A DNA stretch of 64,000 nt, from contig JAGAKN010000004.1 in assembly GCA_017625565.1 (NCBI GenBank), positions 1 through 64,000 of the forward strand, in the 5' to 3' direction. The notes below the pieces were generated by a model. The model saw only the letters and a list, made by a program, of their open reading frames with translations, was not told the origin of the DNA and searched no databases. Shown piece by piece: positions 20,876-26,623 of this stretch. Numbering within the stretch: position 1 is the stretch's first letter; every line of letters starts with the position of its first letter. The translations under genes were made by a program, and so were the position numbers. Source of the DNA: Clostridia bacterium. Its GTDB lineage: Bacteria; Bacillota; Clostridia; Christensenellales; Borkfalkiaceae.

Positions 20876-22060
20876 TTAATACTTTCTCCAAACCATTTTG
20901 TCCACAATCCCCGTGTACGATTGAATGATTTTTACTACTTTCGTCGAAACGTTTTCGTCCACGTAATCGGGGACGGGAATCCCGTGATTGCCATCGTTTG
21001 TCAAATCTACCGCCGTTTCCACCGCTTGTAAAAGGTGTTTTTCATCGATCCCAGCAAGCACAAAGCACGCCTTGTCCAACGCTTCGGGGCGTTCCGTGCT
21101 CGTACGGATACAAACCGCAGGGAAGGGCTTTCCGATGCTGGTAAAGAAACTGCTTTCTTCGGGCAACGTACCACTATCCGATACCACCGTGTACGCGTTC
21201 ATTTGCAGTTTATTGTAATCGTGGAAACCCAAGGGCTCTTGCCGAATTACCCGTTTATCCAGCTGGAATCCGCTCGCCTCCAAGCGTTTTTTACTTCTCG
21301 GATGACAGGAATATAAAATGGGCATATCGTACTTTTCCGCAAGCTTATTAATCGCCGTAAACAGGGAAAGAAAGTTCTTTTCCGTATCGATATTTTCTTC
21401 TCGGTGCGCGGAGAGCAAAATGTATTTTTTAGGTTGTAAGCCCAACCGTTCCAAGACGTCGGATTTTTCAATCTCTGCCAAATTATTATGCAATACTTCC
21501 GCCATCGGCGAACCCGTCACGTAGGTGCGTTCCTTAGGCAAACCGCAATCCGCCAAGTACCGACGAGCGTGTTCGGAATACGCCAAGTTGACGTCGGAAA
21601 TAACGTCTACGATACGACGGTTGGTTTCTTCGGGCAAACACTCGTCCTTGCATCGATTCCCTGCTTCCATATGGAAAATGGGAATATGCAAACGCTTTGC
21701 CGAAATCGCCGAAAGACAACTATTCGTGTCTCCTAAAATCAACAACGCGTCGGGTTTGCAAGCCACCATCAGCTTGTACGAGCAGTTGATAATATTCCCT
21801 ACCGTCGCGCCCAAATCGTCGCCGACCGCGTTCATATACACTTCGGGATCGGCAAGTTTTAAATCCTTAAAGAACACGCCGTTCAAATTATAGTCGTAAT
21901 TTTGTCCCGTATGCGCCAAAATACAATCGAAATATTGACGGCATTTGTTGATAACCGCCGCCAAGCGAATGATTTCCGGACGCGTACCCACGATAATGAG
22001 CAACTTCAATTTTCCGTTGTCTTGAAACTTTACGTTAGAATAATCTACTTGCATTTCCAT
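20876..22060 (-). CDS. UDP-N-acetylglucosamine 2-epimerase, non-hydrolysing (WecB/CapG type)
   Basis: A 394-residue sugar-nucleotide epimerase. It shows VGTRPEIIRLA at the N-terminus, DTNS, EAGNRC, PEETNRRIVD and CHPRSKKRLE, and a C-terminal SDSGTLPEES. The EAGNRC...NRRIVD...ISD pattern resembles the CapG/FnlC branch that epimerises UDP-N-acetyl-L-talosamine at C2 more than plain WecB, but this is tentative. It has no other sugar-nucleotide genes near it and shares a transcript with obgE, an unusual arrangement. Two close ATGs exist; the first is used. Confidence 0.85.
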   Translation of the reverse strand: MEMQVDYSNVKFQDNGKLKLLIIVGTRPEIIRLAAVINKCRQYFDCILAHTGQNYDYNLNGVFFKDLKLADPEVYMNAVGDDLGATVGNIINCSYKLMVACKPDALLILGDTNSCLSAISAKRLHIPIFHMEAGNRCKDECLPEETNRRIVDVISDVNLAYSEHARRYLADCGLPKERTYVTGSPMAEVLHNNLAEIEKSDVLERLGLQPKKYILLSAHREENIDTEKNFLSLFTAINKLAEKYDMPILYSCHPRSKKRLEASGFQLDKRVIRQEPLGFHDYNKLQMNAYTVVSDSGTLPEESSFFTSIGKPFPAVCIRTSTERPEALDKACFVLAGIDEKHLLQAVETAVDLTNDGNHGIPVPDYVDENVSTKVVKIIQSYTGIVDKMVWRKY

Positions 22061-22291: not shown

Positions 22292-23089
22292 ATGCAAAGC
22301 AAAACGTTTGCACATCTTACGAAAACCCAAATATTCCGATTGATTATTTTAATGACGGCGTATGCTTTTTGTTTATTTACCGCAGTCTTTTTTGCCGTGC
22401 AAGAAGAATGGTCTAAGGTAGTAATGGCTTTGGTGTCCCTGCTTTATGCATCCATTCCCGAAATCGCGCAAAAGCTTTTTAAATTCCGCATCCAAACGCC
22501 GTTATACGTCGTCGTAATGTTCTATACGATCTGCCCCTTGTTAGGCTATTCGTATCACTTCTATTACGTCGTGCCCTATTGGGATAAGATTTTACATACG
22601 TTCGGCGGATTGATTTTTGCAATGCTCGGCGTCTATTTGCCGACCGTGTTAAGCAAAGATAAAACGTGCAACGTCTTGCTGTGCGCTGTGTTCGGGTTCG
22701 CATTCTCCGTAGCCATCTCCGGCTTGTGGGAGTTTTGTGAATACGGCATGGACACCCTTTTCCACACCGATATGCAAAAGGACCGTTGGATTACGGAAAT
22801 CCGCTCTTACCTGCTCGGCGTGGACGTGGGAGAAATCGGGGTTGTCGAAGGTATTCAAACGGTAATCGTCAACGGGCAACCTTTGGAAGGTTATTTGGAT
22901 ATCGGTTTGGTGGATACCATGTGGGATATGTTGTTAGAAACCATAGGCGCGGCGATTTATATCACCGTTTACGCAATCGGCAAAGGCAAACATTTCACTT
23001 TTGAAGCCGTTCGCCCCAAAACGGAATTAGAAGAACAACCGCCCCTTTTACAAACGGAAGCTGCCGTCAGCCAAACGCAAGCGGAATAA
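22292..23089 (+). CDS. Polytopic membrane protein, YjdF (DUF2238)-like
   Basis: A 265-residue protein with about six membrane spans and a hydrophilic C-terminal tail. The conserved polar motifs WDKILHTFGGLIFAMLG (about residue 95) and GLWEFCEYGMD (about 145), together with DTMWDMLLETIGA (about 212), match the pattern of YjdF-type membrane proteins, whose function is unknown. An acidic insert (YLLGVDVGEIGVVEG) lies between spans. It is a single-gene unit with a consensus promoter, RBS (AAAGGAG) and terminator. Confidence 0.7.
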   Translation: MQSKTFAHLTKTQIFRLIILMTAYAFCLFTAVFFAVQEEWSKVVMALVSLLYASIPEIAQKLFKFRIQTPLYVVVMFYTICPLLGYSYHFYYVVPYWDKILHTFGGLIFAMLGVYLPTVLSKDKTCNVLLCAVFGFAFSVAISGLWEFCEYGMDTLFHTDMQKDRWITEIRSYLLGVDVGEIGVVEGIQTVIVNGQPLEGYLDIGLVDTMWDMLLETIGAAIYITVYAIGKGKHFTFEAVRPKTELEEQPPLLQTEAAVSQTQAE

Positions 23090-23138: not shown

Positions 23139-24263
23139 TTATTTTCTTCGCCAACGTACGTTCTTTAAAATCCCCGTAGAAAGGATTTGTTTGTTTGTTT
23201 TCTGTTGACGTAAAGCTTCTTCCAACAAATCCCCGAAGAACCGTCTCGCGTCAACCACCCTTTCGCAAAATAAATAATAAGCAAGCGATCCCGGTACGGT
23301 ATTGACTTCGCAAAGATATGCTTTGCCGTCGTTAACAAGAAAATCCAAACGCACGACGCCTTGTAAATTCATTCGCTTATAAACCGTCTTGGTATACGCG
23401 CGGATTTTTTCCCGTAATTCCCCACTCAACGCATCCCTGCTACCCCCTTTCCCAAGTAATCTTCCGCCGTCCGTATCCCGTTTTAAGTATTTTTCTTCAA
23501 ACGAATACACCCCCGTTCCGTACGCCGTTTCAGGTTCGGAAACGAAAATCTCTCCGTCCATAGCGTACGCGGCGCAGTTGACATCCTGTTTGTTTTCTAA
23601 GTACTTTTCAATGATCACCCGATCGTCCAAAGCAAACCCGTTTTCTATCCCCGTTTTGGCTTCGTCTTCGTTTCTCGCAACCGTAATCCCGATGGACGAA
23701 CCCAAATGCGCAGGCTTGATTACGACGGGGTATTTCAAACGGCTTTCAATGCTCCGTAGCAAAAACGCGCCGCGCTTTTCATAATCCTTTTCGTTGACGC
23801 GGATATAATCTAGCGTGGGGATTTTCAACGCGCGCATTACAAATTTCGTCAAACATTTATCCATAAAAATCCCCGACGCCGTTAAATCGGGGGACGCCAA
23901 CGGAATTCCGTTCCATTCCGCGAGCGCGGAAACTCCGCCCCCTTCCCCTAATCCGCCGTGGCAACAATTTAGCACAACGTCTACTTTGCAAAGCGCCCGA
24001 ATTTTTCTTTTGGAAGAATGTACCGCGTACGCTGTTCCGCCGTCAAAAAGCACCCGTTCAAACGAACGGACGTCGAGATTTTGAAAGGCTTTTACGTCCA
24101 TCATCTTCGGCGACGTGTACGTTTCCCCGTTGGTATGCACGTACACGGGCAATACCGCGTACTTTTCCCCGTCCAAAACGTTGATAACGAATATCCCCGT
24201 CAATACGGAAATCTCGTTTTCACACGACCGCCCGCCAAAAAACACCGCTACCGTCTTGCGCAT
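23139..24263 (-). CDS. ddl: D-alanine--D-alanine ligase
   Basis: A 374-residue ATP-grasp ligase that makes D-Ala-D-Ala for the peptidoglycan stem. It begins KTVAVFFGGRSCENEISV. ATP-grasp lysine and loop residues lie in YPVVIKPAHLGSSIGI, and the C-terminal metal and substrate motif is CEVNTVPGS (about 320). A 40-residue extension follows. The active-site tyrosine/phenylalanine that separates D-Ala from D-Lac ligases cannot be called with confidence by eye. It is the last gene of the tsaE-murF-ddl series, 58 bp after murF. The start at 24263 has GGAGGTG; a longer frame adds only six residues. Confidence 0.92.
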   Translation of the reverse strand: MRKTVAVFFGGRSCENEISVLTGIFVINVLDGEKYAVLPVYVHTNGETYTSPKMMDVKAFQNLDVRSFERVLFDGGTAYAVHSSKRKIRALCKVDVVLNCCHGGLGEGGGVSALAEWNGIPLASPDLTASGIFMDKCLTKFVMRALKIPTLDYIRVNEKDYEKRGAFLLRSIESRLKYPVVIKPAHLGSSIGITVARNEDEAKTGIENGFALDDRVIIEKYLENKQDVNCAAYAMDGEIFVSEPETAYGTGVYSFEEKYLKRDTDGGRLLGKGGSRDALSGELREKIRAYTKTVYKRMNLQGVVRLDFLVNDGKAYLCEVNTVPGSLAYYLFCERVVDARRFFGDLLEEALRQQKTNKQILSTGILKNVRWRRK

Positions 24264-24321
24264 AAAAAAACACCTCCGCAATATTTCTTTGCTTTGGTGT
24301 TTCTTTCGTTTTCAATTCTTC

Positions 24322-25926
24322 TTAATACACGTCGGGCAAATCGTTTAAAAACAGTACCGCATCTCCCGTCGAAATCCACGTTTTGAGAACTTCCTGCGCT
24401 TCTTTTAACGTTTTGACGACACGCAAATTGTCCTTGTCGCCACCCGCTTGTAAATACCCGTCTTTTACCGTCCCTACCAGCGTTTCTCCCACGAGTATTA
24501 CCTTATCCAACCCAGCCTTCGCAATCCGTTCGCCCAAGCGCGCGTTGACGCGTTCTTCCAAAATTCCGCATTCGACGATCCCAGGCGTGACGATACACTT
24601 CCGTCCCGAAAACCGTTGGAGCGCCGAAATCCCTTCGTCTGCACCACGCGGATTGCAGTTGTATCCGTCGTCCAAAATATACGCACCACCGCTTTCGATC
24701 AGTTGTAAACGGTGTGCGATCGGCGAAACTTTCCTAAGCCCTGCGCCGATTTGTTCGGGCGTTAAACCAAGCTCCAAGGCAAGCGTCGCAACGAGTTGCA
24801 TATTCTCTACCGCTACGTTTCCAAGCAACGGCGTTTCTACCTGAATTTTTTCTCCGCCAAGCGCCAACGTGAACGACGTTTTCGTCGCGCCCAAGCATAC
24901 GTTCTCCACCGCCGTAGCGTCGGCGATCGCAATCGTTTCCGCGTCTAAAAACTCCTTATCAATCAGGGGTTTCAAGCTCGCGCCACAAACGACTTTTTTC
25001 GCTCCGCAACGTAAAATTTCTTTTTTCTCGTTCCAAACCCCGTCTATCGATCCAAACGTTTGCACGTGTTGTTCGCAAACACCTGTAAAAATCGCGTAAT
25101 CGGGTTGGACGATTCCGCAAAGTTCACGGATATCCCCTGCCTTGCGCGCACCCATTTCCGCGATAAAAATTTGTTTATTTTGAAATTCGTCGCTTGTAAT
25201 CGTCTTTGCAATCCCTATCGGCGTATTGTAGGATGACGGCGTTTCGACCACCGTATATTTCTCTTCGAGTACGCTCTTCAAAATATGCTTTACCGAAGTC
25301 TTGCCATAGCTCCCCACAACGCCGATACGCGTGATTTCCGTCGCCGATAATCTTTTTTGCGCGCGACAGACGAATTTACGGTTTCGACAATTTTCGAAAG
25401 GCGCGGTGATTGCGTTCGCCAAGCAAAGCAGGCAGGGCAACGTCAACGGCAATACCGCAAACGGTACGTACGCGAGCAACGCGTATAATTCCGAGCCGTT
25501 CTTCTCCGATAAAAATCCAAGCAAAGCGATCGCCACGTCGGCAAGCACGGCAACGAGCAATAAATAGACGACGAATAGCCTACGCAGTCTACCCGTACGA
25601 ACCGTAGGCACTTTTAAAGCGAACTTCCCGTCCGCGTATAAGAAGAATAAGCAAATCACGAAAAACGGGATTACCGAAAGCGCCAACGCCCAGCGCACGC
25701 CTAAAAAGGAAAAACACAACGATACCACCGCGACGGATAACGCCAAACAAAGCGCCCAAACCCACAAGCGGTTAAAATACAAATTGTCTTTCCTTTTCAG
25801 CCATCGCCAAAACACGCCGTTTTTGTACCCAGATTGTTGCATCGCCCCCGTGCTTTGAAAGGTTGCGAAACAGAACAAACAAGCGACTACGACGCTTGCG
25901 ACTACCCTGACGATTAAATCACTCAT
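24322..25926 (-). CDS. murF: MurF-type Mur ligase with N-terminal multi-span membrane domain
   Basis: A 534-residue Mur ligase. The ATPase domain starts near residue 198 (GVVGSYGKTSVKHILK), with ETPSSYNTPIGIAK, AEMGARKAGDIREL and VCEQHVQTFG; DDGYNCNPRG opens the C-terminal domain, as in MurF. The usual soluble N-terminal domain of MurF, which binds UDP-MurNAc-tripeptide, is absent. In its place residues 1-190 form about five membrane spans separated by basic loops. Pairing with ddl supports the D-Ala-D-Ala-adding role, but the substrate may be presented at the membrane. It overlaps the upstream hydrolase gene by 8 bp. Confidence 0.85.
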   Translation of the reverse strand: MSDLIVRVVASVVVACLFCFATFQSTGAMQQSGYKNGVFWRWLKRKDNLYFNRLWVWALCLALSVAVVSLCFSFLGVRWALALSVIPFFVICLFFLYADGKFALKVPTVRTGRLRRLFVVYLLLVAVLADVAIALLGFLSEKNGSELYALLAYVPFAVLPLTLPCLLCLANAITAPFENCRNRKFVCRAQKRLSATEITRIGVVGSYGKTSVKHILKSVLEEKYTVVETPSSYNTPIGIAKTITSDEFQNKQIFIAEMGARKAGDIRELCGIVQPDYAIFTGVCEQHVQTFGSIDGVWNEKKEILRCGAKKVVCGASLKPLIDKEFLDAETIAIADATAVENVCLGATKTSFTLALGGEKIQVETPLLGNVAVENMQLVATLALELGLTPEQIGAGLRKVSPIAHRLQLIESGGAYILDDGYNCNPRGADEGISALQRFSGRKCIVTPGIVECGILEERVNARLGERIAKAGLDKVILVGETLVGTVKDGYLQAGGDKDNLRVVKTLKEAQEVLKTWISTGDAVLFLNDLPDVY

Positions 25927-26623
25927 ATAAAAATTCCTCTACGATGAGATTAAAGAGTACGGGATTTTCCACGAACGCGAAATGCCCGCCCGACATCGTT
26001 TTTAGTTGACCATTTTGTAAACAATCGGCGTAAATTTTCGCCTGCGACAACGGAGTAGTACGATCGTTCTCCCCTTCGATAATCAAAGTCGGATTGACAA
26101 TCTTCCTTGCGTCGGAGCGCAAATCTTCGTTGACGATTTTTTTATAGCTTTCCTTCATGATCGGCGAAAGAGTACGGTATTCCGCGCTACCGAACCGTTT
26201 TTCCGCGAACTTTGGCGCAAACTTTTTTACTATCCGATAACTTTTGACTTTCCAAGCGTAAGAAAATCCGCGTTTTTCGATAATCCCAGCCGGGCCCGTC
26301 AAAACGATTTTGTCGAAATTTGCGCCCAAAGACGCCATTTTCACCGCCACCCTACACCCGAACGAGTGCGCGATTATATGCGGTTTTTCCACGCCTAAGT
26401 TTTGCAAAACCGCCTGCGTCCATTCCGCGTAATCGGAAACGGAAAAAGCAGATGAAAGCGGTGGGCTCTGCCCAAATCCTAAAAAATCCAACGCAATCAC
26501 TCGGAAATACCTCGAAAAATATTCCGTTTGCGCCGTGAACGCTTCCTTGGAAGAAAGGTAGCCGTGCAAAAACACCAAATCCTTTCCTTTGCCCTTTTGT
26601 AAAAACGAAACGTCGGACACCAA
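25919..26623 (-). CDS. Alpha/beta-hydrolase
   Basis: A 234-residue single-domain alpha/beta hydrolase. The oxyanion-loop motif VFLHGYLSSKEAF is near residue 17, the nucleophile elbow AHSFGCRVA near 85, the acid IIEGENDRTTP near 187 and the histidine GGHFAFVENP near 214. It resembles MhpC/BioH-type esterases. It overlaps murF by 8 bp, so it is tightly coupled to cell-wall synthesis, although the substrate is unknown. The first codon is TTG (a GTG follows directly), and no good RBS is visible, so the start is uncertain. Confidence 0.85.
   Translation of the reverse strand: MVSDVSFLQKGKGKDLVFLHGYLSSKEAFTAQTEYFSRYFRVIALDFLGFGQSPPLSSAFSVSDYAEWTQAVLQNLGVEKPHIIAHSFGCRVAVKMASLGANFDKIVLTGPAGIIEKRGFSYAWKVKSYRIVKKFAPKFAEKRFGSAEYRTLSPIMKESYKKIVNEDLRSDARKIVNPTLIIEGENDRTTPLSQAKIYADCLQNGQLKTMSGGHFAFVENPVLFNLIVEEFLYE

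Follow-up and report, generated by a model that had tools for sequence, protein, structure and literature searches.

This locus raises the question of what a MurF-type ligase does when membrane helices stand where the domain that binds the UDP-linked substrate is expected. The gene, whose product we call TM-MurF, lies in a window of 64,000 nucleotides from a Clostridia bacterium of the family Borkfalkiaceae. To our knowledge, MurF has so far been regarded as a soluble step that all such pathways share and as a drug target. A literature search, with most subscription journals outside its scope, found no paper describing a membrane MurF and nothing on the cell wall of Sedimentibacter; the accessible parts of PMC9377095 and PMC4153887 deal with unrelated subjects.

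Domain layout and ligase core

The first-pass annotation had described a MurF-type ligase with about five membrane helices in place of the UDP-substrate domain, and Pfam, TIGR01143, and AlphaFold agree with it; its coordinates were right and the strand is minus (Table 1), the plus-strand reading of the same interval containing 19 stops. Pfam places Mur_ligase_M at residues 203-382 and Mur_ligase_C at 405-526 and finds no N-terminal Mur domain, the first 200 residues giving no match with a useful E value; a UPF0715 match at residues 59-158 (E 0.29) was set aside as chance. The best NCBIfam model is TIGR01143 (murF), with 200.9 bits for the protein and 201.4 bits in the genome search, a match that spans only profile positions 67-403 of 418 and stays below the cut-off of 288.6 bits. 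The murE model TIGR01085 is much weaker (35 bits). A search for a viral origin returned 75 pattern hits, none of them a relative.

Table 1. Features of the TM-MurF locus, in window coordinates
Feature	Position	Strand	Description
TM-MurF gene, 534 aa	24322..25926	minus	Membrane domain followed by central and C-terminal ligase domains of MurF type
Membrane domain, codons 1-195	25342..25926	minus	Five predicted helices; without Mur_ligase N domain (Pfam, model)
P-loop G-x-x-G-S-Y-G-K-T, codons 202-210	25297..25323	minus	G205, S206, K209, T210 invariant in 52/52 rows
Basic loop, predicted cytosolic, codons 100-116	25579..25629	minus	Near-invariant T111, invariant R113 and R116 (conservation, charges)
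D-D-x-[YF]-N motif, codons 419-423	24658..24672	minus	Common to canonical MurF (D420, N423)
N-D-L-P-D tail, codons 528-532	24331..24345	minus	Stands at the canonical G-S-R-G-M columns
Alpha/beta hydrolase gene	25919..26623	minus	Pfam; catalytic triad S87-D187-H214
ddl, D-alanine--D-alanine ligase	23139..24281	minus	Directly downstream of the TM-MurF gene

Structure prediction of the N-terminal part, which the first-pass annotation had recommended, gave membrane helices instead of a soluble domain. The AlphaFold2 model of the whole protein, built from a 52-row alignment (pLDDT 93.6, pTM 0.89), has helices at 2-21/23-31, 49-71, 77-99, 112-143, and 154-195, the last of which continues straight into the ligase; modeled alone, the membrane part reaches a pLDDT of 95.6 and a pTM of 0.88. 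Across 51 rows, the predicted cytosolic stretches 32-48, 100-116, and 177-195 carry on average 3.7, 6.6, and 5.0 lysines or arginines, and the two outer loops 0.3 and 0.5; these charges follow the positive-inside rule and therefore point to an N-out/C-in topology. Foldseek gave 0 hits to the membrane domain at E ≤ 0.001 and VIA a best Z of 5.2, so that no close solved fold was found, although this does not by itself prove a new fold.

Conservation in the membrane domain is concentrated on a few positions. Mean column identity is 27%, and besides the start, only Q30, Y34, R113, R116, and E178 are invariant in the 51 rows, with T111 conserved at 90% or more. All six lie in or beside predicted cytosolic stretches, and their location at the predicted cytoplasmic face is as expected of a substrate site. 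We propose that loop 100-116, with T111, R113, and R116, may bind the pyrophosphate of the substrate, the arginines being candidate phosphate ligands.

The ligase core was compared with that of canonical MurF in a tree built on 353 columns of the ligase part, comprising 52 TM-MurF rows, the murC, murD, and murE of the window's genome, and 26 canonical MurF rows, which come from the class and order only, the motif filter having missed 7 of the loci L041-L070, L011, L012, and L195. The TM-MurF clade has a UFBoot value of 89 and the canonical clade one of 100, and both are joined at 99 against murC, murD, and murE. In this tree, TM-MurF is the sister clade of canonical MurF and lies outside it. 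The conserved catalytic columns of canonical MurF (P-loop lysine, acceptor asparagine, histidine, lysine, and the D-D-x-Y-N motif) are retained in TM-MurF, and the columns common to both groups at 90% or more include K209 and T210 of the P-loop, N234, H287, K301, D420, and N423. By its position, we take N234 to be the asparagine that contacts the acceptor carboxylate. Such a contact is described for the conserved asparagine of MurD and MurF in the accessible part of PMC6085368. Among the columns that separate the groups, TM-MurF has T235 for N, H405 for M, TPG447-449 for LGD, and NDLPD528-532 for GSRGM. A structure search with the whole model returned MurF first, the top MurF structures having Z scores of 40.1 (4qf5; rmsd 5.0, 378 aligned) and 38.2 (rmsd 4.0, 364 aligned). 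Given that it stays under the family cut-off, has no Mur N domain, and is not nested in the MurF clade, TM-MurF was not filed as canonical MurF.

Occurrence of TM-MurF and canonical murF

The window's own genome (G000; 1.379 Mb, 23 contigs, 96.2% complete) contains four genes with a Mur ligase middle domain, three of them clustered and passing the murE, murD, and murC cut-offs, the fourth being TM-MurF. We looked for a second, canonical murF, a check that the first-pass annotation had advised and whose success would have told against its reading, and the whole-genome profile search of this 96.2% complete assembly gave no match over the murF cut-off; nor is there an orphan UDP-binding domain in G000, PF01225 occurring only in its murC and murE genes. 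The genome's murE, murD, murC, mraY, ftsW, and murA pass their cut-offs, murG lies just under its own (228.5 versus 250.25 bits) and outside the cluster, and there are three transpeptidase matches. Except for canonical MurF, every step searched for on the way to lipid II is present; murB and others lie outside the search set. The cluster reads transpeptidase fragment-murE-mraY-murD-ftsW-murA-divIB-like-ftsA-like-ftsZ-murC, with no murF between murE and mraY, where the divIB, ftsA, and ftsZ names are our assignments from the sequence by eye. In this cluster (L040, G000:C16:66000-79872), murA occupies the usual place of murG, which is on another contig (C18).

Relatives with the same architecture, which had also been suggested as a check, were found across the genus, order, class, and phylum. 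Among the 41 genomes from the genus and order, G000 included, only 2 have a murF over the cut-off. Simple hydropathy detected 2 to 5 N-terminal hydrophobic segments in the TM-type ORFs of the order (27 of 28 scored, L018 being missed by the motif filter) and none in the two canonical ORFs. In a class survey of 293 genomes with a completeness of at least 90%, the TM-MurF profile yielded 45 full-strength matches (496-668 bits); among the matches listed, the next ones are canonical MurF, which score no higher than 275 bits and begin near position 169-194. The profile start in the 45 lies at position 9 or lower in 27, at 50-55 in 4, and at 94-104 in 14, so that in these 14 the first helices fall outside the alignment, though the ORFs are 473-546 aa long. 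Canonical murF is over the cut-off in 243 of the 293 genomes but in only one of the 45 with TM-MurF (G236, which has both), leaving 44 without it; compared with 242 of 248 genomes, this gives a p of about 1.6e-44 in a Fisher test that ignores relatedness. One genome, G065, carries the TM-MurF gene in two contig-edge pieces, and G205, G230, and G278 have only canonical-like partial matches. Neither form was clearly found in G102, G188, G268, and G313, which belong to the class and are >90% complete.

Beyond the class, the phylum survey detected TM-MurF in 18 of 299 genomes, 14 of these outside the class. Among named loci, of which 80 were kept from 570 candidates, the hosts include Candidatus Gallimonas, Candidatus Borkfalkia, a Christensenellaceae MAG, [Clostridium] ultunense, Sedimentibacter acidaminivorans, and Bacilli MAGs, as well as MAGs labeled Poribacteria and Rhodothermus, for which mis-binning is possible. 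Ten genomes behind named loci were searched for canonical murF: it is over the cut-off in S. acidaminivorans and [C.] ultunense and in none of the other eight. In S. acidaminivorans (G620:C7, L213, L216) and [C.] ultunense (G621:C6, L212, L217), canonical murF adjoins a second gene that we take, from its sequence by eye, to be ddl, and this pair exists besides the hydrolase-TM-MurF-ddl module. With G236, three genomes thus hold both forms, showing that exclusive replacement of murF is not universal, and the presence of a canonical murF with its own ddl in the two named strains suggests that, at least there, the membrane form may differ in role. Proteins with the TM-MurF architecture form a widespread clade and take the place of canonical murF, though not in every genome.

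Gene neighborhood

The adjacent ddl reported by the first-pass annotation is indeed present, and on its other side the TM-MurF gene overlaps with the alpha/beta hydrolase gene, which ends 8 bases inside it and does not appear in that annotation. This arrangement is conserved: among the order loci L013-L039, a homologous hydrolase gene stands beside TM-MurF in 27 of 27 and ddl in 26 of 27, the exception (L017) being near a contig end. The automatic ORF caller recovered the center gene in 70 of the 80 named loci, and of these, 61 have the hydrolase immediately upstream, 47 have ddl nearby, and 45 have both. Contig ends and antisense ORFs depress these counts; in some lineages, a different gene occupies the place of ddl, and L135 and L147 are without the hydrolase gene. 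The hydrolase triad (Ser87, Asp187, and His214) is kept in 68 of 68 aligned rows, and the best NCBIfam match of the protein is EstV lipase (134 bits versus a cut-off of 300). The TM-linked Ddl proteins keep K264-Y265 in 52 of 52 aligned sequences; a K-Y pair of this kind is characteristic of enzymes that make D-Ala-D-Ala, as opposed to D-Ala-D-Lac.

In one locus (L143, from the MAG labeled Poribacteria), the gene order is PBP-murE-hydrolase-TM-MurF-ddl-mraY-murD-ftsW, and the module stands exactly where murF belongs, between murE and mraY. Other cell-wall genes near TM-MurF occur only in L143, L116 (murG), L120 (murC), and L128 (the edge of ftsZ). Weak murE, murD, and murC tblastn matches near several loci were disregarded because they overlap the TM-MurF gene itself.

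Two further genes of the window lie on the far side of ddl. Positions 22292-23089 (plus strand) encode a 265-aa multi-helix protein without a Pfam match, a homologue of which is found beside ddl in L071 too, and positions 20876-22060 (minus strand) hold a UDP-GlcNAc 2-epimerase family gene adjoining what we take, from the sequence by eye, to be an obg-like GTPase gene.

Candidate substrate and relation to known ligases

Although it lies outside canonical MurF, TM-MurF very probably works like MurF and is the working MurF of those genomes that have only this form. We infer both catalysis and a lipid-linked substrate, and we give about an even chance to the fuller statement that it is a working MurF that most likely adds D-Ala-D-Ala to lipid-linked MurNAc-tripeptide. 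The neighboring Ddl would make D-Ala-D-Ala, which TM-MurF would join to MurNAc-tripeptide at the cost of ATP; while the core of the ligase is retained, recognition at the far end of the substrate would fall to the five-helix membrane domain instead of a soluble UDP-binding domain. The acceptor would be the MurNAc-tripeptide of lipid I or lipid II, with the dipeptide added after MraY and not before. Our preferred reading in its most detailed form, held tentatively and at slightly under an even chance, is that MraY first loads MurNAc-tripeptide on the lipid carrier and the membrane-embedded MurF then adds D-Ala-D-Ala on lipid I/II; the membrane domain would be a new fold in which the pyrophosphate of the lipid is bound, and the dedicated serine hydrolase would assist.

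A lipid-linked substrate appears most likely because the last helix runs into the ligase and invariant residues sit at the predicted cytoplasmic face of the membrane; a ligase without a UDP site but with conserved membrane-face arginines would fit such an acceptor best. There is a precedent in MurT/GatD, which acts on the bactoprenol-linked precursors lipid I and II and not on UDP precursors, according to the accessible parts of PMC6085368 and PMC3266927. The first-pass annotation had proposed ligation at the membrane, perhaps on a lipid-linked precursor. Its first part is now well motivated by the replacement of murF and by the cluster position in L143, and the lipid-linked acceptor is what we infer from the invariant residues at the predicted face together with the MurT precedent. 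Two points speak against this reading, namely, the presence of both forms in three genomes and the divergence of the ligase core, C-terminal tail included, at columns that are conserved otherwise.

That TM-MurF replaces murF and stands ahead of mraY in L143 would fit equally well if the enzyme still used UDP-MurNAc-tripeptide, with the membrane domain placing it beside MraY or MurG and the core and basic loop binding the nucleotide sugar; loop 100-116 could bind a UDP pyrophosphate too. We consider this unlikely, though worth keeping in view, given that neither TM-MurF nor, as an orphan, G000 has a UDP-binding domain left, and that Q30, Y34, R113, R116, and E178 are invariant in 51-52 rows against the much lower domain mean, which speaks against a mere anchor since an anchor would need no invariant polar residues. 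Less probable still is a specialized module in which the hydrolase, TM-MurF, and Ddl yield an altered or extra precursor (a different dipeptide, a different polymer, or a repair step) and not the main stem peptide. The three genomes with both forms would suit such a role, as would a hydrolase that is a constant partner here and absent from canonical murF loci (0 of 32, 1.5-kb flanks). However, since 44 of 45 class genomes have no canonical murF over the cut-off, the main step must come from the module in those genomes. In addition, the K-Y pair of the D-Ala-D-Ala type is retained in the linked Ddl proteins, and in L143 the module lies inside a cell-wall cluster. Finally, a separate membrane-protein gene merged with a murF fragment by assembly error, which the first-pass annotation had named as a caveat, or a decayed murF paralogue has almost no probability, since independent assemblies at every level from the genus through order and class to the phylum show this architecture, the catalytic residues are invariant, the model has a high pTM, and nothing was found in favor.

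If the preferred lipid-linked reading holds, a step that textbooks place in the cytoplasm may take place on the membrane in a gut-type bacterium and many of its relatives. The clade is common among animal-gut genomes, extends over several classes and, it appears, beyond a single phylum, and seems to manage without soluble MurF. Were the dipeptide ligated on the lipid carrier, the pathway would not follow its textbook order everywhere, organisms with only TM-MurF would have no UDP-MurNAc-pentapeptide, and compounds that block the UDP-binding site would have no target in them; the conserved hydrolase would then hint at an activity in cell-wall synthesis that has yet to be described. The two strain-named genomes with both forms open the way to a direct comparison.

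Among known systems, MurE has the Mur ligase fold in common with TM-MurF (Z about 29), but TM-MurF matches the murE profile far less than the murF profile, and the genome has its own murE. MurT of the lipid II isoglutaminyl synthase MurT/GatD resembles it in having a Mur ligase core that makes no use of a UDP-binding domain. In contrast to MurT/GatD, TM-MurF has a membrane domain and is partnered by Ddl and the hydrolase; no NCBIfam MurT model matched it at E ≤ 1, and no GatD was seen adjoining it, the neighbors being the hydrolase and ddl genes. From canonical MurF, it differs by the five-helix membrane domain in place of the UDP-binding N domain, the N-D-L-P-D tail for G-S-R-G-M, the constant hydrolase neighbor, the separate clade, and a score under the family cut-off. 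It is like MurF (TIGR01143) in its central and C-terminal ligase domains, P-loop, catalytic columns, adjoining ddl, cluster position in L143, and best structural match.
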